Part shown: piece by piece, positions 2 through 30,912 of the stretch
Position numbering within the stretch: the stretch's first letter is position 1
Layout of the letters: every line of letters begins with the position of its first letter
Source of the DNA: Ruegeria denitrificans
Lineage (GTDB): Bacteria; Pseudomonadota; Alphaproteobacteria; Rhodobacterales; Rhodobacteraceae
Length of the DNA: 64,000 bases
Assembly (NCBI RefSeq): GCF_001458295.1
Contig: NZ_CYUD01000014.1
Location: 62,001-126,000, forward strand
Reading direction: 5' to 3'
Program-made: the position numbers and the translations under genes
Notes under the pieces: model-generated
What the model was told of the DNA's origin: nothing
The model's input: only the letters and a program-made list of their open reading frames with translations
The model's database searches: none

Positions 2-304
2 GTTGGTGTGACATGGGCTGAGCTTCGTCGGGTTGTTGCTGCTGGCGTTGCCTACGTTGTTATACTCGCCATTCTGGCTGCCGGTTTCACGGCAGTTGTG
101 ACTACACTCGGCTTGGGTCAACCGCTCGAGGCGTTTCTTGCATTTGCGCCTGGAGGTCAGGCTGAGATGACCGTTCTTGCCATAGTCTCTGGCGCTGATC
201 TGGGGTTTGTAATCACCCACCACCTGACACGGATCGTACTGGTGATCATCGGCGCACCGATCGCGGCCGGTCTTATTTTGCGTTGGTCCAAACCTCGGGA
301 TTGA
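2..304 (+). CDS. AbrB-family membrane protein, C-terminal part (cut by window edge)
   Basis: This open frame enters from the left edge and ends at a TGA at 302-304. It encodes about 100 residues with three hydrophobic segments. The stretch around 'FAPGGQAEMTVLAIVSGADLGFV' (quoted only as a signature; key residues PGG..EM and the later HH.TR) resembles the end of the AbrB/putative ammonia-monooxygenase membrane family (COG3180), whose members have about 350 residues in the inner membrane. So roughly the last third is visible. The internal GTG at 8 is not a credible start because the family start lies outside the window. Its 3' end overlaps the convergent dehydrogenase gene by 32 bp. The function of the family is poorly defined. 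Confidence 0.7.
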   Translation, partial: VGVTWAELRRVVAAGVAYVVILAILAAGFTAVVTTLGLGQPLEAFLAFAPGGQAEMTVLAIVSGADLGFVITHHLTRIVLVIIGAPIAAGLILRWSKPRD

Positions 305-1253
305 TCATGTGGATCGGAGCGCCATCGGCATAGGCGTTTACCTGATCGAAGATGTCGGCAAATTGCAAGTCGAACTCGTCCTCGGTCACAAAACCGATAT
401 GCGGCGTCGCGATCAGGTTGGGATGCGCAAGCAACGGATCGGTTGGGTCGGTCAACGGCTCCGCATCGAACACATCGATTGCGGCTTTGCCGGGGCGACC
501 GACACTAAGCGCCTCGAGCAATGCACCCGAAGCAAGAAGCCCGGCCCGCGAAGTATTCACGAACATCGCTCCGGGCTGCATCTGTGCAAAATCCGATGCG
601 GTGATGATCCCACGCGTGCCCGGTTTCAGGCGCACATGGACCGACACCACATCACTATCAGCAAAAAACGCCTCCCGGCTCGGCGCGACCGTAGCTCCGT
701 CCGCCTGTGCACGTGACCGGCCATTCTCAGATGACCACCAGACAACATTCATCCCGAACGCCTGAGCGTAGCCTGCAACGGCACGAGCAATGCGGCCATA
801 GCCATAAAGCCCCAATTGGCGACCACGTAGCGTCTTGCCCACTCCGGCCTGCCAGTGCCCTGCCTTGACCGATGTCATCTGCGAAGGCAGATCACGCATT
901 CCGGCCATGATCAGTGCCCATGTGAGTTCGGCCGCGGCATAAGACGGCGTGCCGCCGTGCATGTTCGAACATAAAAGTACATTGTGATCAGAACATGCCT
1001 GCACATCGACGTGGGGATATACGCTGCGCTGACTGATCAGCCGCAGGTTAGGCAGCTTCTCAAGTAACGCTCGGGTAATATTGGTGCGTTCCCGGAACAA
1101 AACCACAGCATTGGCATCCTGTAACCGCGATGCCAACACGCCGATGTCTTCGACGTGATCTGTCCAAACCGTCACGTCATGATCTGCAAGCTTTGCAAAA
1201 CAAGGCAGGCCGCGTAGCGTGTTAAACCAGTCATCCAGAACGTGGATTTTCAT
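273..1253 (-). CDS. D-2-hydroxyacid dehydrogenase family protein
   Basis: Probable cytosolic NAD(P)-dependent oxidoreductase interconverting a D-2-hydroxyacid and a 2-oxoacid. The 326 residues match the family length. The nucleotide-binding glycine motif GLYGYGRIA is at about 148-156. The catalytic triad is complete: Arg236 (NTSRAGL), Glu265 (DVFDAEPL) and His285 (TPHIGF). It resembles the phosphoglycerate dehydrogenase-like branch, but the substrate cannot be read from sequence. It is the last gene of a minus-strand cluster with a tautomerase and a carboxylate transporter, so a product of that pathway is a reasonable guess. The ATG at 1251-1253 overlaps the stop of the upstream small gene by 4 bp, indicating translational coupling. 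Confidence 0.9.
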   Translation of the reverse strand: MKIHVLDDWFNTLRGLPCFAKLADHDVTVWTDHVEDIGVLASRLQDANAVVLFRERTNITRALLEKLPNLRLISQRSVYPHVDVQACSDHNVLLCSNMHGGTPSYAAAELTWALIMAGMRDLPSQMTSVKAGHWQAGVGKTLRGRQLGLYGYGRIARAVAGYAQAFGMNVVWWSSENGRSRAQADGATVAPSREAFFADSDVVSVHVRLKPGTRGIITASDFAQMQPGAMFVNTSRAGLLASGALLEALSVGRPGKAAIDVFDAEPLTDPTDPLLAHPNLIATPHIGFVTEDEFDLQFADIFDQVNAYADGAPIHMINPEVWTNAK

Positions 1254-1486
1254 CGACTTTCAATACCTTGCCCGGTTTCCAGTTTTCTAGGTGTTGGAAC
1301 AAAATTCGGGGCCTCAAGCGCCGCGAGCGCATTGCAGACACGTTGGCTCTGATCCAGCAAATGATTGAATTGCTCATCGCAGCCAGCGATTGGCGTCGGA
1401 TAATTCGCCATATCCAGACGCAATGCAGCCTGCGCCAATTTAAGTTCCTGCCGGGCAATATCGAGGCATTCAGAGTAGTCGTTCAT
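1250..1486 (-). CDS. small conserved-looking hypothetical protein (78 aa)
   Basis: A 78-residue soluble, probably helical protein of unknown function. I do not recognise a domain. It is credible as a gene because a strong ribosome-binding site (AAGAGGAGA) precedes the ATG at the right distance, and its end overlaps the dehydrogenase start by 4 bp (1250-1253). It sits between the PrpF-like isomerase and the dehydrogenase in the same orientation, so it probably belongs to the same transcript. It may assist the pathway or be a small regulator; nothing in the sequence decides this. Confidence 0.65.
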   Translation of the reverse strand: MNDYSECLDIARQELKLAQAALRLDMANYPTPIAGCDEQFNHLLDQSQRVCNALAALEAPNFVPTPRKLETGQGIESR

Positions 1487-1538
1487 CGTGACATCTCCTC
1501 TTATGTATACCGTAGTATACTATTTAGCTTATGCCTGT

Positions 1539-2627
1539 TCAACTCCCATCCCACACAGATTGCGGTACATAGATTTTGCCATCTACCAGCTTGCGCACCG
1601 TTCGCACCAATCCCGCCGCATTGAGGGTGAAACCATCTTCGCTGGAGAAATCCACAAGAACATCGATTTTACCCGAAGCGTGCTCAAGAACGACTTCGGC
1701 AGGCCCAGATGCGGCTCGTTCCAATAACCCATCTGCAACAGTTCCCGGCGTCAACGCACAGGAGGCCATGCATTGTGCCCCTGTTACCGCCATCGTCGGG
1801 TGTGTATTCCACGGCATGAAATACCTGACTGCAAGTGTGCCCCCGTCCCGAGCAGGGGCAAGTATGCCAAATTTCGGGGTCACGGACTGGGATACATCGC
1901 CCATTCCCATCAACAACCCCGCTTCAATCCGAACGGCCTCCATCCGGTCAAAGAACGCGCGATTGCTGTCCAGTTCCTCTGCACTTTCGTATCCGGTAAG
2001 ACCAAAATCAGAGGCGCGCGCAATGGCCATCGGCATCGCGACGTCCATGCAGGTTAGCTCGATACCCTGCACTGTGTCGCGCAGATGACCAGTGGGCAGG
2101 AATGCGCCGGTGGATGAACCCACAACGCCCATGAAACTTAGGTGCACTGGTGCGGCACGCCCCGGCACGCCGGCAATCGCCACATCACCCTGATAGGTCA
2201 GCTCACCGCCAGGTGTCGGCACCTTAGCCACCACCTGCGCTCCGGTGTTGACAGCGCGAATGCGGATTTCGGTTTCATCGCCCCGCGGCTCGACCAAACC
2301 CATTTCGATTGCTGCAGGGCCGACGCCCGACAGGATGTTCCCGCAGGTGGGTTTGAAATCGACCAGCTTTTCCTCAACCGAAACCTGGGCGAAGAAGTAA
2401 TCGATATCTGCCCAGTTTTCGTCACTAGCCGACAGCATCGCGACCTTAGTCGTGACCGCCGCGCCGCCGCCTATCCCGTCAATATTCAACGGGTGTCCAG
2501 CGCCAACCGCAGCGATCAGAACCTCTGCCAGAGTCTCCCGATCCTCCGGCAGGTCAGAGCGTCGGAAGTAGGGTCCGCGAGATGTGCCACCCCGCATGAA
2601 AATGAACGGAATTCCGGTCTGGGTCAT
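1539..2627 (-). CDS. PrpF / 4-oxalomesaconate tautomerase family protein
   Basis: A 362-residue enzyme of the PrpF fold, two diaminopimelate-epimerase-like halves. The N-terminal signature FMRGGTSRGPYF, the cysteine-containing PTCGNI region near residue 94 and the later TQ/THP block (NTHPTMAVTGA) support the family. Known members isomerise methylaconitate (PrpF) or tautomerise 4-oxalomesaconate in gallate and protocatechuate degradation (GalD/LigU). No 2-methylcitrate genes are nearby, while a tricarboxylate transporter and a hydroxyacid dehydrogenase are, so the tautomerase reading seems a little better. It starts 43 bp downstream of the permease stop and is probably in the same operon. The exact substrate is an inference. 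Confidence 0.85.
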   Translation of the reverse strand: MTQTGIPFIFMRGGTSRGPYFRRSDLPEDRETLAEVLIAAVGAGHPLNIDGIGGGAAVTTKVAMLSASDENWADIDYFFAQVSVEEKLVDFKPTCGNILSGVGPAAIEMGLVEPRGDETEIRIRAVNTGAQVVAKVPTPGGELTYQGDVAIAGVPGRAAPVHLSFMGVVGSSTGAFLPTGHLRDTVQGIELTCMDVAMPMAIARASDFGLTGYESAEELDSNRAFFDRMEAVRIEAGLLMGMGDVSQSVTPKFGILAPARDGGTLAVRYFMPWNTHPTMAVTGAQCMASCALTPGTVADGLLERAASGPAEVVLEHASGKIDVLVDFSSEDGFTLNAAGLVRTVRKLVDGKIYVPQSVWDGS

Positions 2628-2670
2628 GTCGCGCCCCTTCGGGTATCGCGCACGCCTGCGACGGCGGGAC

Positions 2671-4701
2671 TCATTTCAGCGGCCATGGCAGGTCAACCAT
2701 GTCCTGCAACAAACCCGGCGGAAAATCGCGGTTCAACGCGCCTGCCATGACACACATGAAACCGATGCCACAGGCTGTCAGGATCAGCGTCATCTGCAAG
2801 CTGGACCCGGCCCGAACGCGCAGGAACGCAATCAGGAACCCGATCAGCGCGAGGATAAAACCCACAACCCAGGTTGCCGCGATCAGGCTTGCGAACCATG
2901 CGAGTGTGGACCACAAGCCATGAGGCGCGCTGGCGTCCTCACCGGCAACTTCCTTGTCGGCAAAGATCGCATCGCCCTCGGGCCGGCGCATCATCTGGAT
3001 CAGCAGAACGACACAGCAAAATAACGATACATACCCAATCACCAGAGGGATGATCTTGTCGGTCATATTGTAGTCCGGGATCATGTTGGCGTTGATCAAA
3101 GCAACGGCCAGATAAGCCATGATCGCCAGCAGGAAGACCAGCGGCGCGCGTTTGCTGCCGGACTGAACCTCGCCCTCGGCCATGATCATCTTGGCCTGAC
3201 GGATGCCCAGAATGATTGAGACAATCGTGACTACGATCAGAATTATCACAATGGGGCTGAAAACATATTCCATACCCTCGCCAAAGCTTTTGCGGAAACG
3301 GAACGAAGCGATCTGGAATGCCTGGTTGGTGAACTTTTCAACCGGGTTCGACAGCACGAAGCCAATTAGAAACGCCGGGCGCGACCAGTCGAAGCGGCGC
3401 AGAAAGATGCCGATCAGGCCGATCACGAACAGGGCCAACAGATCTTCGAAATTCTGACCCGACTGGAACGCCGCAAAGCTGATCAGCATGAACAGGAACG
3501 GTGCCAGGTAGGTAAATCGGATTGTGGTCAGCTTAGCGATACCGCCTGAAGCCGCGATACACAGAATGGTGCCTACAACATTGGCCAGAGCCAGCAACCA
3601 GACGATCGAATACGTGATATCCAGATTGTCTTGCAACATGCTGGGGCCAACCTCGATATCACCTGAACCCAGCAAAGCTACGGCTCCGATGAAGATCGCC
3701 ATCGACCCGGATCCGGGGATGCCAAACAGTAGCGTTGGCACCAGACCGCCGCCCTCTTTTGCATTGTTCGAGCTTTCCGGCCCGATCACACCACGCACTT
3801 CGCCTTTGCCGAAGTTGCTCTTGTCTTTGGTTGTCTGCACGGAATGGCCGTAGGCGATCCAGTCAACAACCGAGCCCCCAAGTCCGGGAATAACACCTAC
3901 GATCACACCGATGATTGAGCATCGAACCGAAAGCCAGATATTGGCGAACCAGTCCTTGACGCCATCCAGCCATCCGGCCCCCAACGAAGCTCCCTTGGCA
4001 ATCGACCGATCCTGACGGAGCAGGGAAACGATTTCAGGGACGGCAAAAATGCCCAAGCCGACAATGACCAGCTTCAGGCCATCGGTCAGATAGGGAATGT
4101 CATAGGTGGCCATACGCAGCGAGCCACCCGCGTCCGCCTCGCCGATGGTGCCGACCATCAGACCGAGCCCAGCGGCGGCAACGCCTTTCAACGGGATGCG
4201 CCCCGCCAAAATAGCCACCATCGAAAGGCCAAGGATGGTGATCATTAGCATCTCGGGAAGGCCGAAGGCCAGAACGATTGGCCGTGCGATCAGAATGAAC
4301 ATGGTCAGGAATGTTGCACCGACCAAACCCCCGAACAGGGATGAGGCAAAGGCAGCAGACAACGCCCGCGCGGCCTCTCCCTTTTTTGCCATCGGGAAGC
4401 CGTCAAGCACAGTTGCCTGCGAGGCCGAACTGCCTGGTATCCCCATCAGGACAGAAGCAAACGTGTCAGAGGTCGGCACGACGGCGACCATTCCGATCAT
4501 CAGCGCCAGACCCAGAATCGGATCCATGCCGAACATGAATGGCAGTAAAAGAGACAGGCCGGCGATACCGCCGAGTCCGGGAAAGACGCCCACGGCTAGC
4601 CCCATGACAACGCCGAGCACAAGATAGCCCAAGACAATAGGTTGCAGGATCAGAGCCCACGCATCACCAAGCGCAGGAAGAGCGGTGGCGAAAACCTCCA
4701 T
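2671..4701 (-). CDS. tripartite tricarboxylate transporter permease, TctA-TctB fusion
   Basis: Inner-membrane permease of a TTT transporter. Residues 1 to about 500 are TctA: many membrane segments, the FPGLGG region near 43-48, the GIPGSSASQA motif near 88-97 and a second PGLGGSVVDW block. From about residue 517 a second domain begins with four hydrophobic segments, typical of the small TctB subunit. The 676-residue length equals TctA plus TctB, and no separate tctB lies between this gene and the binding protein, so the two membrane subunits are one polypeptide. Such fusions are known in the family but less common than separate genes. The gene lies 82 bp after tctC. Confidence 0.92.
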   Translation of the reverse strand: MEVFATALPALGDAWALILQPIVLGYLVLGVVMGLAVGVFPGLGGIAGLSLLLPFMFGMDPILGLALMIGMVAVVPTSDTFASVLMGIPGSSASQATVLDGFPMAKKGEAARALSAAFASSLFGGLVGATFLTMFILIARPIVLAFGLPEMLMITILGLSMVAILAGRIPLKGVAAAGLGLMVGTIGEADAGGSLRMATYDIPYLTDGLKLVIVGLGIFAVPEIVSLLRQDRSIAKGASLGAGWLDGVKDWFANIWLSVRCSIIGVIVGVIPGLGGSVVDWIAYGHSVQTTKDKSNFGKGEVRGVIGPESSNNAKEGGGLVPTLLFGIPGSGSMAIFIGAVALLGSGDIEVGPSMLQDNLDITYSIVWLLALANVVGTILCIAASGGIAKLTTIRFTYLAPFLFMLISFAAFQSGQNFEDLLALFVIGLIGIFLRRFDWSRPAFLIGFVLSNPVEKFTNQAFQIASFRFRKSFGEGMEYVFSPIVIILIVVTIVSIILGIRQAKMIMAEGEVQSGSKRAPLVFLLAIMAYLAVALINANMIPDYNMTDKIIPLVIGYVSLFCCVVLLIQMMRRPEGDAIFADKEVAGEDASAPHGLWSTLAWFASLIAATWVVGFILALIGFLIAFLRVRAGSSLQMTLILTACGIGFMCVMAGALNRDFPPGLLQDMVDLPWPLK

Positions 4702-4783
4702 AGCGGCCGCCTTTCATTCGATTTTTTCAGAATTCAGATGGCACGGCCCTCGTGTGGGAGGGCACGCGCTGTGAAAGGCAGGC

Positions 4784-5872
4784 TTAGTTCAGCTCAACGC
4801 CGTAGGAATCTTTAAGCCAGTTCAGGACATACTGCTTGGCGTTGTCATCCACACTCGTTGCAGTTTGCAGGGCGGCTTTGGAGCCGTCTCCGACAAACAC
4901 CGGGTACTTGCCAACTCGCTTGGAGGAGATATCGGCAAAATCCGCACGCTCAGTGACAGCTTGGAAGGCTGCTGTGTAAGTGTCGACGACATCCTGCGGG
5001 GTATCACCCGGCAAGAAGGCCAGTTTCTGTACCGGGAAACCCGCAACAAAGAAGGCTTTCCACGCATCCCACGCCTCACCGCTGGTTTCACAGCCATCGG
5101 TGGCTTCGCAAACCTCTTTGAAGGTCGGGATATCCGGGAACGTCGGGTCGCGCACGATGTTGCCATCCGCGTCCAGCGCACCCCAGGTCATCATCGGAAC
5201 AGCCTGACCGGCCTCGACCAATGGGGCAGAGCCGCCCAGAAAACCCGATGAGGTCTGATAATCGATGTTGGCCTCACCACGTTCGAACATAAGACGGCCA
5301 TCACCGCGACCCTTAATGCCGAAGACCGGTTCAACATCCATGCCCAGCATCTGCCACGCCAGTAGCGGTACTAGGTCCAGCCGGGTTGCGCCTTGCGAGC
5401 CATAGATAAAGCTGGTGTCCTTCAGCGCATTTGCCGATCCGTCGAATTTCGCACCATCTTCCGCGTTCAGGTAGGCCACGCCCCCGGTGCCCGATGCCAT
5501 GACAGGAATCCAGTCGTTGTATTCATAACGCACGCGCGGATCGCTCAGAAGATACGGAAACTGGGTTGAACCGGATGTTCCGAACAAAAGCGTGCCATCG
5601 TCGTGCTCTTGTTCTTGAAACCAGTTTGCTCCTTTGGTTGAGCCTGCGCCCGGCATGAACTTCACCACAACGGTTGGCTGGCCGGGCAGCGCCTCGGACA
5701 GAAGCGGCGCAAAGAAGTTGGCCCATTTGGCCGAACCGCCCGTTTCCGAGAACGGGATGACCCACTCAATGGTCTTGCCCGAGAAATCGACCTCAGCAGC
5801 GACAGGCGCGGCCAGCCCGGCGGCAGCGATCAGCCCCACGACGGCGCGACGGGTAAAGTTGGAAATGGTCAT
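4784..5872 (-). CDS. TctC-like periplasmic solute-binding protein
   Basis: Periplasmic receptor of the TTT system, delivering a small carboxylate to the TctAB permease. I place the start at the ATG at 5870-5872 (362 residues): AGGGAGGAACC lies just upstream, and the protein then begins with a good signal peptide (charged MTISNFTRRA, hydrophobic core, cleavage after PVAA near residue 26). The longer upstream extension is not signal-like. The mature part begins FSGKTIEWVIPFSETGG, the usual Bug/TctC opening. Residues contacting the ligand cannot be assigned to a specific acid. It heads the minus-strand operon and is divergent from a TctD/TctE-like sensor pair that probably controls it. Confidence 0.9.
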   Translation of the reverse strand: MTISNFTRRAVVGLIAAAGLAAPVAAEVDFSGKTIEWVIPFSETGGSAKWANFFAPLLSEALPGQPTVVVKFMPGAGSTKGANWFQEQEHDDGTLLFGTSGSTQFPYLLSDPRVRYEYNDWIPVMASGTGGVAYLNAEDGAKFDGSANALKDTSFIYGSQGATRLDLVPLLAWQMLGMDVEPVFGIKGRGDGRLMFERGEANIDYQTSSGFLGGSAPLVEAGQAVPMMTWGALDADGNIVRDPTFPDIPTFKEVCEATDGCETSGEAWDAWKAFFVAGFPVQKLAFLPGDTPQDVVDTYTAAFQAVTERADFADISSKRVGKYPVFVGDGSKAALQTATSVDDNAKQYVLNWLKDSYGVELN

Positions 5873-6011
5873 TGGTTCCTCCCTGTTGACCAGACAACCA
5901 CGAAGGCACGCTTGGCACCACCGTGATCGCAAATAGAACTGTGGGGTTGATTCCCCCTCCCATCTGGCAATCATGAAGGGCCAACCTTGCGCGAAACTTG
6001 CAGGAGCCCTG
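5873..6011. promoter_or_regulatory. divergent promoter region between tctC-like gene and two-component system
   Basis: This 139-bp gap separates two divergent starts and must hold both promoters. It contains GGGG-TTGATT-CCCC near 5942-5956 and GTTG-N6-CAAC near 5885-5898 as short dyads. Either could be a response-regulator site, but they are short and no experimental motif was compared. The position, not the dyads, is the main support. Confidence 0.4.
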
Positions 6012-6680
6012 ATGCGGATTGTCATCGTCGAGGATAACGAGCCACTTGCCAACGCCATTGCGTATCGCCTGCGTGATCGTGGTCATGCGGCTGACGTGCT
6101 GACGGATGGCGACGAGGCTGACACCTATCTGGAACAGGAAGGTGCAGACCTGATCGTTCTGGATATCAACTTGCCAGGCCGGTCCGGGCTTGAAATCCTG
6201 CAATCCTTGCGCAGTCGCGGAGATGGTGCGCCAGTGATCCTGCTGACCGCCCGGTCAGAGACAAGCGACCGTGTGCTGGGTCTGGATATGGGCGCTGACG
6301 ATTATCTAGTCAAACCCTTCGAGATGGATGAGTTGGAAGCCCGCATTCGTGCGCTTTCGCGCCGAAAGGACCTCGACTACGGCGCGCGCGAAACCATCGG
6401 CGGATTGGAATTCGATCGCTCGGCACGGCAGGTCACCGTTCACGGAGAGGTAATGGACGTGCCACGCCGGGAATTGGCCGTGCTTGAATGCCTGCTTGAA
6501 CGCCGAGGTAGGATTGTCCCCAAAAGCCAATTGACCGACTATGTCTATGGTATCGGCGCGGACATCGAGGATTCCGCCGTGGAACCCCATGTGTCGCGGT
6601 TACGAAAACGGCTTCAGGATCTGGGCATCAGAATCAAAACGGCCCGCGGGCTTGGCTACCTGCTTGAGGTGCAGAAGTGA
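6012..6680 (+). CDS. OmpR-family response regulator, TctD-like
   Basis: A 222-residue DNA-binding response regulator. The receiver domain (1-115) shows the acidic pocket VEDNE, phospho-acceptor Asp51 (VLDINLPG), Thr79 and Lys101 (YLVKPFE). A winged-helix C-terminal domain follows and ends with the typical arrangement VEPHVSRLRKRL and GLGYLL. The start at 6012 is preceded by CAGGAGCCCTG; an earlier in-frame ATG at 5973 would add 13 residues ahead of the conserved MRIVIVED start and is rejected. Its stop overlaps the kinase start by 4 bp. Divergence from the TTT genes suggests it activates them in response to the transported acid, as TctD does. Confidence 0.9.
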   Translation: MRIVIVEDNEPLANAIAYRLRDRGHAADVLTDGDEADTYLEQEGADLIVLDINLPGRSGLEILQSLRSRGDGAPVILLTARSETSDRVLGLDMGADDYLVKPFEMDELEARIRALSRRKDLDYGARETIGGLEFDRSARQVTVHGEVMDVPRRELAVLECLLERRGRIVPKSQLTDYVYGIGADIEDSAVEPHVSRLRKRLQDLGIRIKTARGLGYLLEVQK

Positions 6681-8044
6681 TACCGCAGCGGTCGCTCAGG
6701 TTAAGGTTATTCCTGCTGATCCTCACGCCTTTGGTTTTGCTTGCGTTTCTGCTTGGGTTTTGGCGTTTCAACGTTGCTCAGAAAACCGCGCAGGAGCTCT
6801 TTGATGAGAGCTTACTATCAGCGGGACTCGCTATTTCACGCGATGTGGCAATCTCGGGCGGCGACGCGTTGTTGCCCTCGACGCGCAGTATGATCCGCGA
6901 AGCATCCGGTGGAGAGATATTCTATCACGTGACCGGTCCGGGCGGCAGCTATGTCACTGGCTACGCGTACCCGCCAACATCTGCTGCATCATCGCAACAA
7001 GACCCTTACAGTCCACATTTTTTTGAATCTGTGCACCGGGAGGTGCCCGTCCGGGTTCTCAGAATGACCGAGCGCGTCACTTTGGAAAACCTGGTGGGGG
7101 ACGCGACTGTAACTGTGTGGCAGCTCATGGCCGACCGAAATGCATTTGCCAACCAGTTGTCGCTCCGCGCTGCAATTCTGATGGGCATTTTGTTGACGAC
7201 GCTTGCCATTGTCGTGTGGTTCGGCGTTGCCCGCGGTCTACGACCGTTGCTCGATTTACAGGAAGCAATCGCGCTGAGATCGCCAGACGACCTCAGCGAA
7301 ATCAAACGGTCGGTCCCGATCGAAGTACGAGGCATTGTCAAAACCCTGAATCGGCTGTTTGGGCAGGTTGAACACAGCATCAACGCTCATCAAGTGTTTA
7401 TTTCAGAAGCCGCGCATCAGCTACGAAACCCAGCAGCCGCGGTCCAGTCCATGGCCGAGGCACTGAGAGATGCGAAAACGGATGAGGACAGGGACAAACG
7501 CATTGTTGAGCTTGTGGCCGCGGCAAAAAACTCGGCCACGGTGGCGCAACAGTTATTGTCGCTGGAACGACTGCGGCAACCTACGCATCAGGATCAGATG
7601 GATGAGATTGATTTCCGCGTAGTCGTGGAAGAGGCTTGTGCAGAGATGGGCGTTCATATCCTCGCAAAAGGGATCGACTTTGAGGTCGCGATGCCGGACA
7701 CGCCGATCGTGATCTCAGGGGATCGTGTGTTTTTGACTGAGGCCATCAAAAATCTGCTGGACAACGCTGTTAAGCACGGTGGTACAAAATTGAGCCGAAT
7801 TTCAGTCTTGCTGCACTGTGAGGGCGGGAACGTCAAGCTAACTGTGGCCGATGACGGAACAGGTCTTTCGCCTAACCAAAGCGAAGCCGCGTTCAGTCGG
7901 TTTTCGCAGCTCGAGTACTCCGAAGGCAGCGGTTTGGGGTTGTCAATTGTCTCAGCGGTGGCGGAGCGCCATGGAGGAGTGGTCGCGATCAACCAAGTCG
8001 AAAAAGGAGCAAGCTTTACGCTTGAGCTTCCCATAGCCGTCTAG
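6677..8044 (+). CDS. sensor histidine kinase, TctE-like
   Basis: A 455-residue membrane kinase partnered with the preceding regulator (GTG start at 6677 overlapping its TGA). It has a membrane segment at about 10-29, a periplasmic sensor domain to about 160, a second membrane segment at about 165-185, then a HAMP-like linker. His247 in ISEAAHQLRNP is the phospho-site; the N box (KNLLDNAVKH), G1 (ADDGTGLS) and G2 (GSGLGLSIV) complete the ATPase domain. The periplasmic domain between two helices fits TctE-type sensors of di- and tricarboxylates. The signal itself is not readable. Confidence 0.88.
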   Translation: MIPQRSLRLRLFLLILTPLVLLAFLLGFWRFNVAQKTAQELFDESLLSAGLAISRDVAISGGDALLPSTRSMIREASGGEIFYHVTGPGGSYVTGYAYPPTSAASSQQDPYSPHFFESVHREVPVRVLRMTERVTLENLVGDATVTVWQLMADRNAFANQLSLRAAILMGILLTTLAIVVWFGVARGLRPLLDLQEAIALRSPDDLSEIKRSVPIEVRGIVKTLNRLFGQVEHSINAHQVFISEAAHQLRNPAAAVQSMAEALRDAKTDEDRDKRIVELVAAAKNSATVAQQLLSLERLRQPTHQDQMDEIDFRVVVEEACAEMGVHILAKGIDFEVAMPDTPIVISGDRVFLTEAIKNLLDNAVKHGGTKLSRISVLLHCEGGNVKLTVADDGTGLSPNQSEAAFSRFSQLEYSEGSGLGLSIVSAVAERHGGVVAINQVEKGASFTLELPIAV

Positions 8045-8804: not shown

Positions 8805-9284
8805 TCAACTAGTTGATGAGCCTACTGGGGTGGGTTGTCCTGTTTCGACCATCGCCAGGTCACGAACCAGGTTCCGAGTCTTTTTCGGGTAAGCGCGAAC
8901 AAACCCGGCGTCACAGGGGATCGTCTCGATTTCTCTTCGGTCCAACGCCCGAGCCAAATGGATCGCTGCGAGCTCAATTTTCTCTGCCATTTGGCCAAGC
9001 GTCACATACACCTCTGCAAACGCCTGAATGCTCTCTTCAGTGATGTAGCACCGGTAGTGCTGCGTGTCCGGGTTTCGCGCTTTTATCTGCTTCAGATATC
9101 CACCATCCCTCAACCGTCGGATAGAACCGACGCTAATTCTCAGGCGTGCCGCCGCATCCTTAAGCGACAGATCGCCGGAAAACACACGCTCCGATTTTTC
9201 CAAGGTCTCAGTGTAGTCGATCAGAATTGCTGCCAATCCGTCAACGTCCGGGTCTCTCGATACACCGGTCAGTCGGCCCGCCAC
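8805..9284 (-). pseudogene. 3' remnant of a helix-turn-helix protein, possibly TniQ-like
   Basis: This open frame encodes 159 residues. Its core (GDLSLKDAAARLRISVGSIRRLRDGGYL) is a convincing helix-turn-helix, followed by a stretch on a cargo-like tail (YRCYITEESIQAFAEVYVTLGQMA). From memory this tail resembles the end of TniQ-family transposition proteins of Rhodobacterales; this is a tentative link. There is no N-terminal zinc-finger part and the only start is a GTG at 9284 inside the end of the neighbouring NTPase fragment. I therefore read it as the surviving 3' end of a longer gene, joined to the NTPase remnant by a deletion. It might instead be expressed as a small coupled regulator. 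Confidence 0.5.
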
Positions 9285-9874
9285 CCGTCACCGGCAACAG
9301 CTCTAATTAGTTTAAGCGTTTGAGGATTACCAAACAGACCTTCGAGCCCTTTTTCTTCGAAATGTGTAAGGACATTTTCTGCCCTGCTATCTCCGATATC
9401 GCTTGACAACAAAGTGCGAGCCTCATCCCGAGAGATTGGTTCCAGAAAGAGCTCAAGCGGATCATTTCCGTAGGAATCCGCCACAGCTTGCGTACTTGTG
9501 GCGCTTCTCCAGTCAGCCACTCGGCAGGAGAGAATGAAGTTTGGAAACCCAGCTTTCTCAAGCGATGCAAGGACGGCGTCGACAGCATCTCCTTCAGCTT
9601 GTACTGCCAGTTCATCAAGTGCGTCTATGACGAAGGTTGTCGCGTCACCCAAGAGTTTTGAAGGATCAGGCGATCGGATTAGGCGTCTTGCGTGAACAAA
9701 TTTGTAGCCAGCCTCTTGTCCGATTTCTTCTAGCAGTGTCGTCTTTCCCATTCCAGCATCGCCCAAGACGAGAATGGGTTTTGTCCGACCTCGGAGATCA
9801 GCTTGAGGCAGCTCAAATAATTTGCCATCGGCGTCAATGCCGCTCAGTCGTCGCGCAATGATGCTGTTAGTCAT
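9269..9874 (-). pseudogene. N-terminal fragment of a NACHT-like / STAND NTPase
   Basis: The 201 residues contain a P-loop (VLGDAGMGKTTLLEE, about 36-50), a Walker B-like motif (TFVIDALDEL, about 79-88) and a downstream sensor-like Arg region (ILSCRVADWR), the order seen in NACHT-type STAND NTPases. Full proteins of this kind have 700-1500 residues with a large repeat or effector C-terminus; here the frame stops (…AVAGDGWRAD) directly after the NTPase core. No effector or sensor domain follows. STAND NTPases of this type often act in phage defence, but a truncated copy is probably inactive. It overlaps the next remnant by 16 bp at the presumed deletion joint. Confidence 0.6.
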
Positions 9875-21801: not shown

Positions 21802-23205
21802 ATGGCACTGGACAGCCAAATCCTGGGGGACACCCAGGCGCAAAACTCTGCTGCGCAAAAACTCTACTTCGCCGCCTGGCGGTGGCATTTCTATGCGGGG
21901 ATTTTCGTCATCCCCTTCCTGATCATCCTGGCTGTCACCGGGTTGATGATGATGTTCATCACCCAATATGACGGCCGCGACGGTGAGAAAATCGCGGCCG
22001 AGGTTCAGGGCACCGCCCTGCCCGTCTCACAGCAAGCCGAGGTTGCTTTGGCAGAGGTCTCGGGCACAGTCGTCGAATGGATCGGCCCGAAAGCCGCCGA
22101 TCTGGCCACCGTTTTCCGCATCAAAACCGAGGCTGGTCAGCGCCTTGTGGCTGTCGACCCCTATGCCGGTGAGGTTCTGCAAATCTGGGATCGCCGCGCG
22201 GGTTGGTACGATCTGGCCGACAACATCCACTCGACCCTGCTGATCGGCACGACTGGGGATCGCATCATTGAAATCGCTGCCGGGCTGAGCCTACTGCTGG
22301 TCTTCACCGGTCTGTACATGTGGTGGCCGCGCGGCAACGTCATGGCGGCCTTTGTGCCTAACTTGCACGCGCGAGGTCGCGCATTGTGGAAGTCCCTACA
22401 CGCCGTGATCGGGTTCTGGATGTCCGGGTTGCTGGTTGTCTTCCTGATCTCGGGCCTGTCCTGGGCCGGTGTCTGGGGTGGTATGATCGTACAACCCTGG
22501 AGCAGTTTCCCTGCTGAGAAATGGGACAATGTGCCCCTCTCGGACGATATCCACGCCAGCATGAATCACGGGCATCAGAATGACGTCCCCTGGGCGTTGG
22601 AACAAACACCTATGCCCGCCTCGGGGTCTCAGGTCGGGATTGATGGCGTACCGCAAGGAACGCCGGTAAATATTGACGCGTTGGTGGCGCTGGGAACCGC
22701 GCTGGACATGTCAGGGCGTTTCCGCGTCGCTTATCCCAGCGGCGAGGATGGCGTCTGGACCCTGAACCGCGACAGCATGAGCAGCGACACGACCGATCCG
22801 GTGAATGACCGCACCGTTCACGTGGATCAGTATACTGGCAAGATATTGGCGGATGTTCGGTATAAGGACTACTCGCTGATGGGGAAATCCATGGCTGTTG
22901 GCATTCCGTTTCACATGGGGCTGATGGGCACGTGGAATTTTGCCCTGAACGTCCTGTTTTGCCTGTCTGTCATCTTTGTCTGCGTCTCGGGCGTGGTGAT
23001 GTGGCTGAAACGGCGACCTCAAGGTGCCGGGCGTCTGGCCGCGCCACCGATGCCGGCGGAATTACCGCTGTGGAAAGGGGCAGTCGTGATTGGCCTGTTC
23101 ACCGCAATGGCCTTCCCGTTGGTTGGTCTGACCTTGCTGGCTGTTCTGATCTTTGACCTGCTGCTGGTCAGCAATATCCCGGCAATGAAAAAGGCCATGA
23201 GCTGA
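21802..23205 (+). CDS. PepSY-associated TM domain protein (iron uptake type)
   Basis: A 467-residue inner-membrane protein of the PepSY_TM family, with a first helix (about 25-48), PepSY-like periplasmic loops (VEWIGPKAADLATVFRI), and at least three more helices toward the C-terminus. Related proteins (FsrB, PiuB-like) act near siderophore receptors and may reduce ferric chelates. The start at 21802 is preceded by CGGAGAAT; the upstream ATG at 21757 gives a non-conserved extension. Downstream is a hairpin at 23212. No TonB receptor lies within the window. Confidence 0.85.
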   Translation: MALDSQILGDTQAQNSAAQKLYFAAWRWHFYAGIFVIPFLIILAVTGLMMMFITQYDGRDGEKIAAEVQGTALPVSQQAEVALAEVSGTVVEWIGPKAADLATVFRIKTEAGQRLVAVDPYAGEVLQIWDRRAGWYDLADNIHSTLLIGTTGDRIIEIAAGLSLLLVFTGLYMWWPRGNVMAAFVPNLHARGRALWKSLHAVIGFWMSGLLVVFLISGLSWAGVWGGMIVQPWSSFPAEKWDNVPLSDDIHASMNHGHQNDVPWALEQTPMPASGSQVGIDGVPQGTPVNIDALVALGTALDMSGRFRVAYPSGEDGVWTLNRDSMSSDTTDPVNDRTVHVDQYTGKILADVRYKDYSLMGKSMAVGIPFHMGLMGTWNFALNVLFCLSVIFVCVSGVVMWLKRRPQGAGRLAAPPMPAELPLWKGAVVIGLFTAMAFPLVGLTLLAVLIFDLLLVSNIPAMKKAMS

Positions 23206-23211
23206 CAAATC

Positions 23212-23238
23212 CGGGCCGCATCGCTTTGGTGCGGCCCG
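23212..23238 (+). terminator. hairpin after the PepSY gene
   Basis: CGGGCCGCA and TGCGGCCCG form a perfect 9-bp stem around TCGCTTTGG. There is no following T-run (ATCAAACC), so it is a poor intrinsic terminator; it may act with Rho or as an RNA-stabilising 3' end. Confidence 0.5.
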
Positions 23239-23319
23239 ATCAAACCGGATGTTTCCGCTATCCGGCCTTGGCAGCATCCCTCAAAGGCCCTAACACAGGT
23301 CCCCAGAGGGATAGCAGCC

Positions 23320-24183
23320 ATGAAGACAAGAGATATGAACCGGGATTGGATCGCCACCGCCGCCACTTTGAACAGCGCCTTGCCGTACCTGCAACGCTAT
23401 GACGGAGCCATTGTCGTCATTAAGCTGGGTGGCCACGCTATGGGCAGTGACGAAGCGATGGAAAGCTTTGCCCGCGACGTTGTTCTGATGCGTCAGGTTG
23501 GCGTGAACCCGGTGGTTGTGCATGGTGGCGGGCCAATGATCAACGCGATGCTGGATCAGCTGAACATCCAGTCCGAGTTTGTGAACGGCAAACGTGTGAC
23601 CGACAAGGCCACCGTCGAAGTTGTCGAGATGGTTCTGTCCGGCCTGGTGAACAAGCGCATCGTACAAGCGATCAATGGTCAGGGCGGCAAAGCGGTGGGT
23701 CTGTCCGGCAAGGACGCCAACTTGATTGTCTGCGATCAGGCCGACCCTTCGCTTGGGTTTGTCGGGTCTCCGTCCGAGATGGACCCGGCTATCTTGCATA
23801 ACCTGTTCGCGCATGATGTGATTCCGGTAATTGCGCCTTTGGGAGCAGGTAAGAACGGCGAAACCTTTAACATCAACGGTGATACCGCCGCCGGGGCAAT
23901 TGCGTCGGCGCTCAAGGCGGACCGGCTGCTGCTGCTGACGGACGTTTCGGGTGTGAAGAACGCGGGCGGCGAAGTTGTGACCGAGCTCAAAGCCGGTCAG
24001 ATCCGCGAGATGACCATGGACGGCACCATTGCGGGCGGGATGATCCCCAAGACCGAAACGGCGCTGGACGCCCTGCACAGCGGTGTACGAGCGGTTGTCA
24101 TTCTGGACGGGCGCGCGCCCAATGCGGTGTTGCTGGAGCTGTTCACCGAACACGGCGCCGGCTCGCTGATCCGACCCGACTAA
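23320..24183 (+). CDS. argB: acetylglutamate kinase
   Basis: The 287-residue enzyme phosphorylates N-acetyl-L-glutamate in arginine synthesis. The amino-acid kinase motifs are clear: [18 protein letters not shown], and [16 protein letters not shown], with a C-terminal LLLTDVSGV. Start at 23320 or, as [10 protein letters not shown], at 23335. The conserved position after engB-type genes fits alphaproteobacteria. No other arginine genes are nearby. Confidence 0.96.
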
Positions 24184-24201
24184 TCACCTAGCGGAGGAGA
24201 C

Positions 24202-24879
24202 ATGACCGGACATCCCCCGACCTCCTCAACTAAATCTTATGACCGCGTGGAAGATGCGGCGCTGCAGGTGGGTCTGACCGTAATGGGTGCGCTGCACCCG
24301 CACCGGGTTGATGCCAAACAACTGGATCATGGCACCTTGATCCTGCTGGGTGCCGGACCGTCCTTTTGGCCCGCATTGAAATCCTCGCCCGAGTGGCAAA
24401 GCGACCACCCGGTTGATCGGTGGTCAACACGCGTGGTCGGTCAATTGGCCCTTGATCTGGGTGCCGAGGCGCATTTTCCTTTCGGCGGCCCGCCCTATGC
24501 GCCGTTCATCGACTGGGCGCTGAAATCCGGCCGCACTTTCAGCAGCCCGGTAGGCGCGCTGGTGCATGATACCGTTGGCATGATGATCTCATTCCGTGGG
24601 GCGCTGCATTTTGCCGAGGAATTCGCCATCCCCGAGGCGCCCGGGGTCTCGCCATGCGCCACCTGCCCGGCCCCGTGCACCCAGACCTGCCCGGTCGGTG
24701 CGCTGAACAGTCAAAGATTTTATGACGTCGATGCCTGCCACGGTCACCTGTCCACCGATGCGGGGCGAACCTGTATGACCGGTGGGTGTCTGGCGAGGCT
24801 GTCCTGCCCGCTTAGCGAAGGTGCGGGGCGCGATCGGGAGCAGTCCGCCCATCACATGAAGGCCTTTCACCCGTCATGA
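24202..24879 (+). CDS. 4Fe-4S ferredoxin-type protein, QueG-like C-terminal domain
   Basis: A 225-residue protein whose C-terminal half carries two cysteine groups: Cys152, 155, 159 and 163 (PCATCPAPCTQTCPVG) and Cys179, 191, 196 and 202. This layout matches the 8-iron cluster region of epoxyqueuosine-reductase-like proteins, but it lacks the cobalamin-binding part, so true QueG function is unlikely. The N-terminal part has a GAGPSFWPALK stretch and LDLGAEAHFPFGG. The substrate and partner are unknown. It overlaps the following phosphatase gene by 4 bp. Confidence 0.75.
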   Translation: MTGHPPTSSTKSYDRVEDAALQVGLTVMGALHPHRVDAKQLDHGTLILLGAGPSFWPALKSSPEWQSDHPVDRWSTRVVGQLALDLGAEAHFPFGGPPYAPFIDWALKSGRTFSSPVGALVHDTVGMMISFRGALHFAEEFAIPEAPGVSPCATCPAPCTQTCPVGALNSQRFYDVDACHGHLSTDAGRTCMTGGCLARLSCPLSEGAGRDREQSAHHMKAFHPS

Positions 24880-25373
24880 GCCGCACCCTGATCCTGACCC
24901 GCCACGCGAAATCCAGTTGGAATGATCTGAATCTTGCGGATCATGATCGCCCTTTGAACAAACGCGGGCGCAAATCGACCCCGGCGATAGCCGGTTGGCT
25001 GCGCGCAAACGGCTGGCTGCCGAATGAGGTGCTAAGTTCGACATCGACCCGAACACGTGAAACCTGGGACCGGATGGGGTTGCAGGCGGACAAGATCACG
25101 TTTCACCGCGCGCTTTATCACGCGGAGTCCGAGGACATTCTGACCGAGTTGTCGGGGGCGACAGAACCCACAGTGCTGATGCTGGGCCACAACCCCGGGA
25201 TCGGCGTCTTTGCCAGCCGCATTGTCCGGGAGGTACCGGACCACGCCCGGTTCCACGACTACCCGACCTGCGCCACGACCGTGATCCGGTTTGATATCGA
25301 CGACTGGGCGGACGTCCGATGGCACAGCGGCACCGTGCAGGGATTTGTCATTCCACGCGAACTGCTGGAATGA
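24876..25373 (+). CDS. SixA-like histidine phosphatase
   Basis: A 165-residue phosphatase of the histidine-phosphatase superfamily, SixA-like by size. The catalytic RHAKSSW places the nucleophile at His10; a second His is in LMLGHNPG and the Arg in STRTRETW. It could remove phosphate from phosphohistidine signalling proteins or another small substrate; this cannot be told from sequence. It is followed at once by the bidirectional terminator at 25375. Confidence 0.85.
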   Translation: MSRTLILTRHAKSSWNDLNLADHDRPLNKRGRKSTPAIAGWLRANGWLPNEVLSSTSTRTRETWDRMGLQADKITFHRALYHAESEDILTELSGATEPTVLMLGHNPGIGVFASRIVREVPDHARFHDYPTCATTVIRFDIDDWADVRWHSGTVQGFVIPRELLE

Positions 25374-25374
25374 A

Positions 25375-25401
25375 AAAAGGCGGGGCAAAACCCCGCCTTT
25401 T
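25375..25401. terminator. bidirectional intrinsic terminator
   Basis: AAAAGGCGGGG and CCCCGCCTTTT pair across the loop CAAAA. Each strand ends the stem in a T-run, so it can stop both the plus-strand sixA transcript and the minus-strand bztD transcript converging here. Confidence 0.9.
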
Positions 25402-25418
25402 CGTCCGTTTCACTGGGA

Positions 25419-26210
25419 TCAGTGGCCCAGAATCTGGCTAAGGAACAATTTGGTCCGCTCTGACTGTGGGTTGTTGAAGAACTCTTCCGGTTCGTTCTGT
25501 TCCACAATCTGACCGGCATCCATAAAGATCACGCGGTTCGCCACCTGACGAGCAAAGCCCATCTCGTGCGTGACGCACAGCATGGTCATGCCTTCCTCGG
25601 CCAGCTCGATCATGGTGTCGAGCACCTCTTTGATCATCTCAGGGTCCAGCGCCGATGTCGGTTCATCGAACAACATGATCCGCGGCATCATGCAGAGCGA
25701 GCGGGCAATCGCCACACGCTGCTGTTGACCGCCCGAAAGCTGACCGGGGTATTTGTCGGCCTGCTCAGGGATTTTCACCTTTTCCAGGAAATGCATCGCA
25801 CGCTCTTCGGCTTCTTTCTTGGGCGTCTTACGCACCCAGATCGGGGCCAGCGTGCAGTTTTCCAAAATGGTCAGGTGCGGGAACAAGTTGAAGTGCTGGA
25901 ACACCATGCCAACCTCGGATCGGATCTTGTCGATGTTTTTCAGGTCATTCGACAACTCGGTCCCATCCACGACGATCCTGCCTTGCTGGTGTTCCTCCAG
26001 CGCGTTCAGGCAGCGGATCAGGGTAGACTTTCCCGATCCCGACGGCCCCGCGATCACAATCCGCTCGCCCTGATTGACGGTCAGATTGATGTCGCGCAGC
26101 ACGTGGAAGGCCCCGTACCACTTGTTCATGTTGGTGATTTCGATGGCGACCTCGTCGCTCACCTGCATCTTCGAGCGGTCGATTTCGCGTTCTATTGCAA
26201 GTTCAGACAT
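25419..26210 (-). CDS. bztD: amino-acid ABC transporter ATP-binding protein
   Basis: A 263-residue cytosolic ATPase of a polar-amino-acid ABC importer. Walker A is GPSGSGKST, the Q-loop VFQHFNL, the ABC signature LSGGQQQR, Walker [12 protein letters not shown] and the H-loop THEM. With the two large permeases and the binding protein it forms the BztABCD/AapJQMP type for general L-amino acids such as glutamate, glutamine, aspartate and asparagine. It is 12 bp downstream of the second permease. Confidence 0.93.
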
Positions 26211-26222
26211 GGGTTGAACTCC

Positions 26223-27578
26223 TTAACGGTGGCCAGTCTGAAGCTTGCGCTCCAGATACATGGAATAACGGGACATGGAGAAACAGACGACGAAGAACAG
26301 CACGCCGATAAAGGCAAACAGCTCCCAGTAGACGCCATTCCAAGCAGTATCGGCGCGGATGCCATTGGTAAGGCCGATCACGTCGAAAAGACCGATGATC
26401 GAGACCAGCGTGGTATCCTTGAAAATGCCGATAAAGGTACTCACGATGCCCGGGATCGAGATTTTCAGCGCTTGCGGCATGATGATCAGCCGTTGGGCCT
26501 GCCAGTAGTTCAGGCCCAGACTGTCGGCCCCTTCGTACTGACCACGCGGCAAGGCTGCCAGACCACCCCGGATCACCTCGGCCATGTAGGCGGCCGAGAA
26601 CAGGGTCATCATGATCATCACTCGCAGGATGATGTCAAAATTTGTACCCGGCGGCAGGAACAGGTTCAAAAGCAGCGAGGCCACGAACAGCAGAGTGATC
26701 AGCGGCACGCCGCGGATGAACTCGATAAAGCCCACGCACAGGTATTTGACGATCATCAGATCGGACTGCCGACCCAGCGCCAGAACGATGCCAATGGGCA
26801 GCGAGACACCAATGGCCACAACACCCAACAAGATCGCCAGCATGAAGCCACCAAAGTCGCGGCTTTGGACCGGTTCGATACCAATGGGAATCACTGAATC
26901 AATCGCAACAGCAACCGGACCAGAGGCAAACAACCACCAGAGTATCGGCAATACAATCGCCAGAATCAGCGCCGTCAAGGAACCTGCGGCGGGTAGCGCC
27001 AGCTTGTATACAAAGTACCCAATGGCGAACCCAGCAGCGACCATCAGCGGCCCCCAAATGCTTCCACCCCACATCAGCCAAGGCAGCAGGAACGGATAGG
27101 CCGCCGTAACGAACAGCAGCTTCCGCGGTGCTTTGGTGAACAGGACCGGTGCAATTGACACAAGCAACAGAATAAAGGTCAGATTCGGCCGAAAATAGGC
27201 GGGCCAGCCACCGGTTTCAGGCGGATTAGACCACGTTGCGTCCGGATGTGCCGGATAAGGCGGATAGAACCCGTACAGCAATTGCAGCCACCGGTCCTTG
27301 ATAACACCCCAGCAGGCATGGCCATGAGTATCACCCCATGTCGCCATCATGATCTCACGACACTCTGACAGAGAATTGGCGTTCCACACGGATTCGAACG
27401 TCCATGACAGAATGTTGGACAGCGCATAGTAGATTAAGTACAGCGCAGCTAAGGTCAGGATGGCGTTGAGCCAGCTTGAGAACAGATTATGCCTGATCCA
27501 GCCAAGTATTCCGACCTCGGATGCGGGCGGTTCCTTTTCCGGCAGCATCTCCGTGCGGACAAATGAAACATCACTCAT
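26223..27578 (-). CDS. bztC: amino-acid ABC transporter permease (BztC/AapM type)
   Basis: A 451-residue membrane protein, longer than common HisM-type permeases, as typical for this family; a central periplasmic insertion separates N-terminal helices from the permease core. The EAA motif region (EGADSLGLNYWQAQRLIIMPQALK) is clear. The start at 27578 (GGAGCGG ahead of it) fits better than one eight codons upstream. It begins one base after the preceding gene's stop. Confidence 0.92.
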   Translation of the reverse strand: MSDVSFVRTEMLPEKEPPASEVGILGWIRHNLFSSWLNAILTLAALYLIYYALSNILSWTFESVWNANSLSECREIMMATWGDTHGHACWGVIKDRWLQLLYGFYPPYPAHPDATWSNPPETGGWPAYFRPNLTFILLLVSIAPVLFTKAPRKLLFVTAAYPFLLPWLMWGGSIWGPLMVAAGFAIGYFVYKLALPAAGSLTALILAIVLPILWWLFASGPVAVAIDSVIPIGIEPVQSRDFGGFMLAILLGVVAIGVSLPIGIVLALGRQSDLMIVKYLCVGFIEFIRGVPLITLLFVASLLLNLFLPPGTNFDIILRVMIMMTLFSAAYMAEVIRGGLAALPRGQYEGADSLGLNYWQAQRLIIMPQALKISIPGIVSTFIGIFKDTTLVSIIGLFDVIGLTNGIRADTAWNGVYWELFAFIGVLFFVVCFSMSRYSMYLERKLQTGHR

Positions 27579-27579
27579 A

Positions 27580-28848: not shown

Positions 28849-28932
28849 GACCTATGTTTTTCCCCGTGCATCCCGGTTTATGGCAGAGTTTGCTTCTGCT
28901 CAGATCGTTCCGGGCGTGTTTCTTATGGAAGG

Positions 28933-28963
28933 AAAAAGGGCGCAGGTTGCCCCGCGCCCTTTT
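28933..28963 (-). terminator. intra-operon terminator or attenuator after bztA
   Basis: On the minus strand GGGCGC pairs with GCGCCC, extended by A-T pairs, and ends in TTTTT. It sits 10 bp after the bztA stop and ahead of bztB, so it probably makes bztA mRNA more abundant than the permease mRNA by partial termination, as commonly seen for binding proteins. Confidence 0.75.
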
Positions 28964-28972
28964 CCGTGGTTT

Positions 28973-29992: not shown

Positions 29993-30200
29993 TTTTACCT
30001 CTTCCTGATTTTCCGTCCCCATCCAGAAACGGCTCTGTCCGGCACCTTTGGCACCAGAAAGGTTTCCCCAAAGGTGTCTCCCCTTTAGTGGGCACGAGTT
30101 TGGGCGTAATCATAAACAAACGTCAAGGCCCGGATCAGGGAAAACGATGATTCAATTCAGGGATGACTCATCCGACGCTGGAAAATCAGGTTTTGAGGGA

Positions 30201-30908: not shown

Positions 30909-30912
30909 TTTG

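Follow-up and report, generated by a model that had tools for sequence, protein, structure and literature searches.

Salmonella TcuA is said, after work by Lewis in 2006, to convert tricarballylate to cis-aconitate. TcuB is described as the electron partner of TcuA (PMC10468695). In the tripartite tricarboxylate transporter (TTT) family, the TctCBA/TctD system of Salmonella and the BctCBA/BctED system of Bordetella consist of TctA, TctB and TctC parts with a two-component regulator. A 2018 review calls knowledge of the family scarce; fused TctAB, which it reports 'in at least one case' and describes for Paraburkholderia caribensis, is there termed rare (PMC5812351). In the tarR-tarA-tarB genes for trans-aconitate assimilation of Bacillus velezensis, TarA is an aconitate isomerase of the PrpF superfamily, while TarB is an importer of the major facilitator superfamily (MFS); this 2024 paper on trans-aconitate states that further importers urgently need identifying (PMC11495376). 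The PrpF protein of Shewanella has been crystallised with trans-aconitate, and isomerises aconitate by a Lys/Cys isomerisation (PMC5690661). Here we describe a gene module in Ruegeria denitrificans, located at the start of a 64,000-nucleotide stretch of a 4.62 Mb genome (the window; G000:C14:62001-126000), that combines a TTT with a fused TctA-TctB permease, a PrpF-family isomerase and, just beyond the window edge, TcuA and TcuB.

All the parts belong to known kinds. The module resembles TctCBA and BctCBA in its TctA, TctB and TctC parts and in its two-component regulator, which is placed divergently as tctD is; it differs in that TctA and TctB form one chain, that TctC is too divergent for Pfam, and that the transporter is coupled to PrpF and TcuAB. 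The Paraburkholderia caribensis protein is alike in its fused TctA-TctB, judged by description, and was reported as rare, whereas the fusion is fixed in those members sampled of the window's clade. The likeness to tarRAB lies in a PrpF-superfamily isomerase beside an importer, and extends to a LysR regulator in eight diverged loci (L143-L149 and L154) whose order, LysR|PrpF-TctC-TctAB, mirrors tarR-tarA-tarB. The importer is however a TTT and not the MFS protein TarB, and the window adds the two-component regulator and TcuAB. Salmonella tcuABC is matched in TcuA and TcuB, both over curated cut-offs (TcuB via TIGR02484, not NF011607), with the differences of an adjoining TTT, a GntR regulator and the added PrpF. 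What appears to be new is a TTT clade that is both fused and divergent, the close association of this clade with PrpF, and an isomerase that is likely mislabelled. No description of the module was found in the literature searched, which was covered at the level of titles and the starts of abstracts, subscription papers being mostly outside it.

We predict with moderate confidence, from the gene content, that the module serves the catabolism of branched C6 tricarboxylates, most likely trans-aconitate and tricarballylate. The class of branched tricarboxylates is held more firmly than any single acid.

Organisation of the locus

The genes of TctC, the TctA-TctB fusion, PrpF, a small open reading frame (ORF) of 78 amino acids and a D-2-hydroxyacid dehydrogenase (DH) are transcribed in that order from the minus strand. 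A response regulator and a kinase with a 2CSK_N domain are divergent from TctC, on the plus strand. The features are as follows, in window coordinates unless assigned to region L086.

1-304, plus: AbrB-family membrane protein, 3' end (PF05145, TIGR03082)
273-1253, minus: DH, similar to phosphoglycerate dehydrogenase (PGDH-like), 326 aa (PF02826, 7.4e-48; PF00389, 9.1e-13)
1250-1486, minus: conserved small ORF of 78 aa that overlaps the start of DH; no known family
1539-2627, minus: transporter-associated PrpF-family isomerase, 362 aa (PF04303, 317.8 bits)
2671-4701, minus: TctA-TctB fusion permease, 676 aa (PF01970, 373.5 bits)
4784-5872, minus: divergent TctC-type periplasmic binding protein, 362 aa (from its predicted fold)
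5873-6011, no strand: intergenic region between the divergent genes, read from the sequence
6012-6680, plus: OmpR-type response regulator, TctD-like (PF00072 and PF00486)
6677-8044, plus: sensor histidine kinase with 2CSK_N domain (PF08521, 82.6 bits; HisKA, HATPase_c)
L086:16482-17210, minus: GntR, outside the window, beyond AbrB
L086:15076-16470, minus: TcuA, tricarballylate dehydrogenase, outside the window (NF006130, 667.6 bits against a cut-off of 369)
L086:14007-15101, minus: TcuB, partner of TcuA, outside the window (TIGR02484, 339.6 bits against a cut-off of 246.6)

The start of the response regulator was picked from alignment to family models, and the intergenic region 5873-6011 is presumed to be a shared control region of the divergent genes. 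The AbrB gene starts upstream of the window; the complete gene is L086:17174-18304. It is convergent with the module, and is followed in the flank by GntR, TcuA and TcuB in the module's own direction, so that AbrB and GntR separate DH from TcuA/TcuB. Both TcuA and TcuB exceed curated cut-offs for tricarballylate utilisation; against a further model, NF011607, TcuB scores 383.3 bits, below the cut-off of 524.

An earlier note, made by a model from the window alone, listed the genes between 273 and 8044. All are present at its coordinates and match the families that it named; the TctC gene was not in its list. TcuA and TcuB lie beyond the window edge and were therefore invisible to that reader. 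They are the main clue to function, and their presence in the same cluster strongly suggests a small polycarboxylate as the substrate, as the note had proposed.

Conservation of the gene set

The gene set was followed in 80 loci carrying the fusion, the best 80 of 248 confirmed stretches in genome contigs. PrpF adjoins the fusion in all 80. TctC is found in 78, both misses being at contig ends, and the three genes are colinear (TctC-TctAB-PrpF) in 79/80, the exception being cut before TctC. A histidine kinase and a response regulator are each present in 76 loci, contig ends accounting for three of the four misses, and DH in 73. Less constant are AbrB (53 loci), GntR (48), a universal stress protein (USP; 45), LysR (17) and an isocitrate/isopropylmalate-type dehydrogenase (9). 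Within the fetched flanks TcuA occurs in 62 loci and TcuB in 59; for 17 of the remaining 18 loci TcuA is encoded elsewhere in the same genome. The earlier note had regarded the genes as an uptake and isomerisation module with a one-piece permease, an idea that it would have held refuted if they did not occur together in other genomes. Their wide co-occurrence supports a coherent module of this kind.

TctC orthologs were found in 54 of 198 genomes sampled from the family, nearly every one of which represents a different genus, at a limit of E 1e-100 or better that was set after the list had been seen. TcuA is present in 51 of these 54 genomes and in 14 of the 144 without a TctC ortholog (Fisher 1.5e-30, uncorrected for shared ancestry). 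Seven candidates were scored per genome in this census, so a miss is not proof of absence. Adding eight weaker TctC homologs, to make 62 in total, gives 52/62 against 13/136, again uncorrected for relatedness. In 36 of the 54 genomes TcuA lies no more than 15 kb from TctC on one contig. The module also occurs on plasmids, such as Pseudosulfitobacter p4, whose deposited record has tcuA and tcuB annotated by name.

In a sample of 398 genomes from the phylum the TctC type was found in 14 at E 1e-20, the window's own included. Sixteen regions with TctC homologs, of 19-19.5 kb, were chosen by hand. Ten come from these 14 genomes, after removal of the window's own and three close ones; of the other six, three are from the TctC genomes that gave no TcuA and three from the eight with a weak TctC. 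PrpF is nearby in 13/16 regions, and 15/16 have a TctAB open frame with the length of a fusion. The weak TctC group (~31-36% identity) has no PrpF in any of its three regions (L150, L151 and L155), and the TctC/PrpF pairing thus does not extend to that group. Among the eight LysR-type loci, L143 and L154 belong to the same family as the window and L144-L149 to two others. A diverged set, with PrpF at 45% identity, occurs in Thalassospira marina. It comprises TcuAB, regulators, TctC, fused TctAB and PrpF, and its dehydrogenase is of the isocitrate/isopropylmalate type, DH being absent from the stretch; L141 and L142 agree with this.

The fused permease and its divergent binding protein

The one-piece permease of the earlier note is borne out, with no internal stop in the fusion in 80/80 loci and a matched length of 640-676 residues. 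The nearest relatives, in R. atlantica CECT 4292 and Ruegeria sp. EL01, are 99% identical. The TctA domain spans residues 24-445 (PF01970). The last 177 residues alone match the Pfam TctB family PF07331 at E 1e-3 in all 17 members scanned, the best at E 8.7e-8; the tail of the window protein has E 1.6e-5 and 25.6 bits, below the cut-off of 29.1 bits. Four hydrophobic segments lie in residues 519-656, so that the tail appears from its sequence to provide the subunit of four transmembrane segments (TctB) that is characteristic of TTT. A TTT is otherwise expected to have three separate chains, whereas here TctA-TctB is one open frame. The system is a variant form of TTT, since the fusion has already been described for the family.

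Diverged homologs of the fusion (41-53% identity) are also found in open frames of 647-669 aa. In L155 just residues 6-500 aligned, and fusion there is deduced from the length of the frame alone. Fused TctAB is the rule in the clade sampled, although described as rare. Open-frame lengths were set aside as a measure of fusion, as the frames apparently run from stop to stop. A search with the fusion profile gave no solved structure at E 0.01, and the AF2 model of the fused permease has a pLDDT of 34.6.

Neither Pfam nor NCBIfam has a model that the protein encoded at 4784-5872 would match at E 1e-3. With PF03401 the window copy gives only E 0.054; 28 of 41 members match this model at E 10 or less, the best at 0.0021. 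An AF2 model was built from the 41 aligned copies, with pLDDT 84. Its best Foldseek match is 2dvz (E 6.9e-13), which is TctC/Bug-type, and VIA gave Z 24.9 to 5oei, with 2.8 Å over 291 residues. The top 11 VIA rows (Z 19.8-24.9) are TctC/Bug-type, and the next row falls to Z 13.1. The expected TctC/Bug component of a TTT is therefore recognised by the predicted fold, and not by the sequence model. On the basis of the structural model the protein is a TctC protein of a divergent subfamily. The matched TctC of Fluviibacterium sp. MJW13 (L071:6828-7913) contains one or more in-frame stops, from which the fusion and PrpF at that locus are free.

The PrpF isomerase

The window PrpF is the only PrpF match in its genome. 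It belongs to the PrpF family, as TarA does, and has the catalytic Lys and Cys, judged from the alignment; Lys61 and Cys95 are invariant in 19/19 aligned PrpF proteins, and align with those of LigU. The best match among solved structures is 6otv, E. coli YbhH (E 1.2e-94), whose deposited name is merely 'putative isomerase'. The two have in common the motifs RYFMP and D-x-A-M-P.

GalD and LigU are of the same family with the same Lys/Cys pair. The window PrpF is 41-45% identical to four enzymes (L119-L122) that are linked to LigK, the 4-carboxy-4-hydroxy-2-oxoadipate (CHA) aldolase. It differs from this type in having DVAMP and RYFMP in place of DNGMP and R[ST]FIPHR, and in that its genome has no LigK. 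DVAMP with RYFMP occurs in 78/80 loci, with slight variation in the other two, while DNGMP and R[ST]FIPHR are present in all eight LigK-linked enzymes examined; this two-motif criterion was derived in the present analysis and is not a published one. A protein of E. coli, which shows no difference from the sequence of the YbhH structure where the two were compared, and two Rhizobium enzymes have DxA[MI]P and RYFMP. All eight LysR-type enzymes have RYF[MV]P, and in two of them the first motif is DAAMP. In both trees the window PrpF falls outside the LigK-linked clade (99/97 with 4 rows, 100/99 with 5 rows). The sequences suggest that the label 4-oxalomesaconate (OMA) tautomerase is misapplied to isomerases of the window type.

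PrpF genes beside other importers were also seen. On a plasmid of Paracoccus yeei (L115) a PrpF of the DVAMP/RYFMP type (61%) occurs with AbrB and adjoins three genes of the MmgE/PrpD family, with ATP-binding cassette (ABC) transporter genes in place of a TTT, which suggests that this acid, or one like it, is also imported by other routes. Two Rhizobium plasmids (L116 and L117) have LysR|PrpF followed by an ABC transporter. In Cupriavidus necator pBB2 (L125) a TctC gene is beside a PrpF-domain gene amid CoA-transferase and thiolase genes, with no membrane subunit annotated in the stretch.

Proposed function of the module

The proposed pathway begins with capture of the acid in the periplasm by TctC, as its fold would imply, and import through the fused permease, probably by ion symport as in its family. 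The PrpF enzyme would then move a double bond, or isomerise trans-aconitate to cis-aconitate, by means of the Lys/Cys pair. TcuA may oxidise tricarballylate to cis-aconitate, by analogy with the Salmonella enzyme, with TcuB as the electron acceptor, and cis-aconitate would enter the tricarboxylic acid cycle via aconitase. More speculatively, DH, or the isocitrate/isopropylmalate-type dehydrogenase in some relatives, could handle a 2-hydroxy tricarboxylate such as an isomer of isocitrate. The divergent kinase/regulator pair probably senses the acid, and GntR or LysR may control the tcu part. More tentatively, the clade of fused TctAB and divergent TctC could be a deep, hitherto undescribed branch of TTT systems that is dedicated to the import of trans-aconitate, the TTT counterpart of the MFS protein TarB, tied to an aconitate isomerase of the PrpF type; TcuAB would extend the range to tricarballylate in Rhodobacterales and Thalassospira.

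A number of observations weigh against the assignment to trans-aconitate and tricarballylate. TcuA was not found in four genomes that have both TctC and PrpF: that of L083, which is a metagenome-assembled genome, and G054, G166 and G168. The LysR-type regions have no TcuAB within 19.5 kb, the search for TcuA beyond the region having covered G168 alone. DH has no more than a speculative role in the scheme, and the likeness of the window isomerase to TarA is one of described family. Nor are the transporter-linked isomerases uniform. Six LysR-type enzymes (L143-L147 and L154) have no match to the first motif in the range scanned, so this motif is not common to the whole set, and enzymes of the Thalassospira type group with the LigK-linked clade (99/97), so the set is not one clade. 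The window PrpF passes the cut-off of NF033377, the model for OMA tautomerase (457.5 bits against 440), which explains its database name. In L140, from another alphaproteobacterial family, TctC-TctAB directly follows a gallate-type operon of a PIG-L gene, an extradiol dioxygenase (above the cut-off of TIGR03211, catechol 2,3-dioxygenase), LigK (TIGR02798, 372 bits), an OMA tautomerase (532 bits) and a DUF1932 gene. The PIG-L gene is presumably GalB-like, by family link. TctC and TctAB of L140 are 70% identical to those of the window, and the sole accompanying isomerase is OMA-type (DNGMP). Lastly, in L156-L158 TctC-TctAB-PrpF lies ~10 kb or less from PIG-L, LigK and OMA-tautomerase genes.

Import of another tricarboxylate or hydroxytricarboxylate, such as citrate, isomers of isocitrate, hydroxycitrate or homocitrate, would leave PrpF and TcuAB to act on minor derivatives. 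Regulation of TctD or two-component type is known for citrate TTT systems (PMC5812351, PMC4684311). A hydroxy acid would also suit the presence of DH in 73/80 loci and of the isocitrate/isopropylmalate-type dehydrogenase in 9/80. Use of citrate should however require neither PrpF nor TcuAB. With PrpF in 80/80 loci and TcuA in 51/54 genomes, we regard such a substrate as unlikely.

The gallate-type neighbours described above, and the NF033377 score, favour a module serving a C7 tricarboxylate of gallate or protocatechuate meta-cleavage (OMA, CHA or a related acid), in which PrpF would be an OMA tautomerase or isomerase. Twenty genomes have both LigK and TctC, and in 3 of them the two genes are no more than 15 kb apart; uniform placement on 4 Mb would give P ~5e-4 for 3 or more such cases. 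These three are L156-L158, which were fetched because LigK was near and are the only such cases found among the 20; a set of 11 regions was picked partly for nearby LigK or TcuA. TcuA is also nearby in L156 and L157, and ~64 kb away in the genome of L158. Against this, LigK is found in 20/54 TctC genomes and 36/144 others, which is not significant (p 0.11), and L156-L158 each have two isomerases side by side, one with each motif pair (3/3), suggesting that the coexisting enzymes have different jobs. The window's genome has no CHA aldolase above the cut-off (best 29.9 bits against 304.5), its sole match to the LigB family is HpaD, and its PrpF is placed outside the LigK-linked clade. We consider a C7 substrate improbable here. 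The suggestion in the earlier note of a gallate- or protocatechuate-derived acid thus fails for this genome, which has no LigK, HpaD only, and different motifs in its isomerase, and survives in a weaker form in four relatives. As OMA and CHA are themselves branched tricarboxylates, acceptance of this shape may be a general property of the transporter family. Elsewhere in the genome (G000:C4, ~22369-30970; L090) another TctA gene is located near the HpaD/HpaE homoprotocatechuate genes, and is a possible aromatic-acid TTT.

That PrpF is the 2-methylaconitate isomerase of propionate metabolism (AcnD-PrpF), with an unrelated transporter, is very improbable, for while the PrpF domain is present the match to TIGR02334 is 167.3 bits, far below the cut-off of 440.55, no AcnD or PrpC is among the identified cluster neighbours, unlike in Paraburkholderia, and PrpF is tied to the transporter in 80/80 loci.

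Accessory and neighbouring genes

The four DH motifs (the NAD-binding, R, E and H regions) are all present in 68 of 74 aligned copies. L025 and L085 have in-frame stops within the matched DH, while the fusion and PrpF of both loci are without stops. The 78-aa ORF has tblastn matches in 26/80 loci (50-92% identity) and no Pfam match at E 0.01; five of six other loci inspected have a different short ORF in its position. A supposed USP remnant between PrpF and DH proved to be a chance match of 5 residues, and the gap holds the 78-aa ORF.

The regulatory pair, which the earlier note called TctD/TctE, is right in kind. TctD is the best NCBIfam model for the response regulator (NF012023, 202.4 bits), below the cut-off of 337, while that for the kinase is QseC, with 136 bits against a cut-off of 475.

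Beyond the kinase, the interval 8805-9874 on the minus strand drew attention for a protein of the HTH_17 type, just below the Pfam cut-off. It adjoins a short NACHT/STAND-like ATPase ORF of 201 aa, which overlaps an ORF in another frame. Weak matches to the MADS-type defence models mad1 (E 2.5e-4) and mad8 (7.7e-4) mark this as possibly the remnant of a defence gene.

Significance

The TTT clade described here provides a concrete and testable candidate for an importer of trans-aconitate. Two short motifs distinguish the isomerases of the window's clade from the LigK-linked ones examined. If the proposed function is correct, the name 4-oxalomesaconate tautomerase would be a misnomer in a large number of marine bacteria, and marine roseobacters would be linked to plant-type tricarboxylates as a source of carbon.

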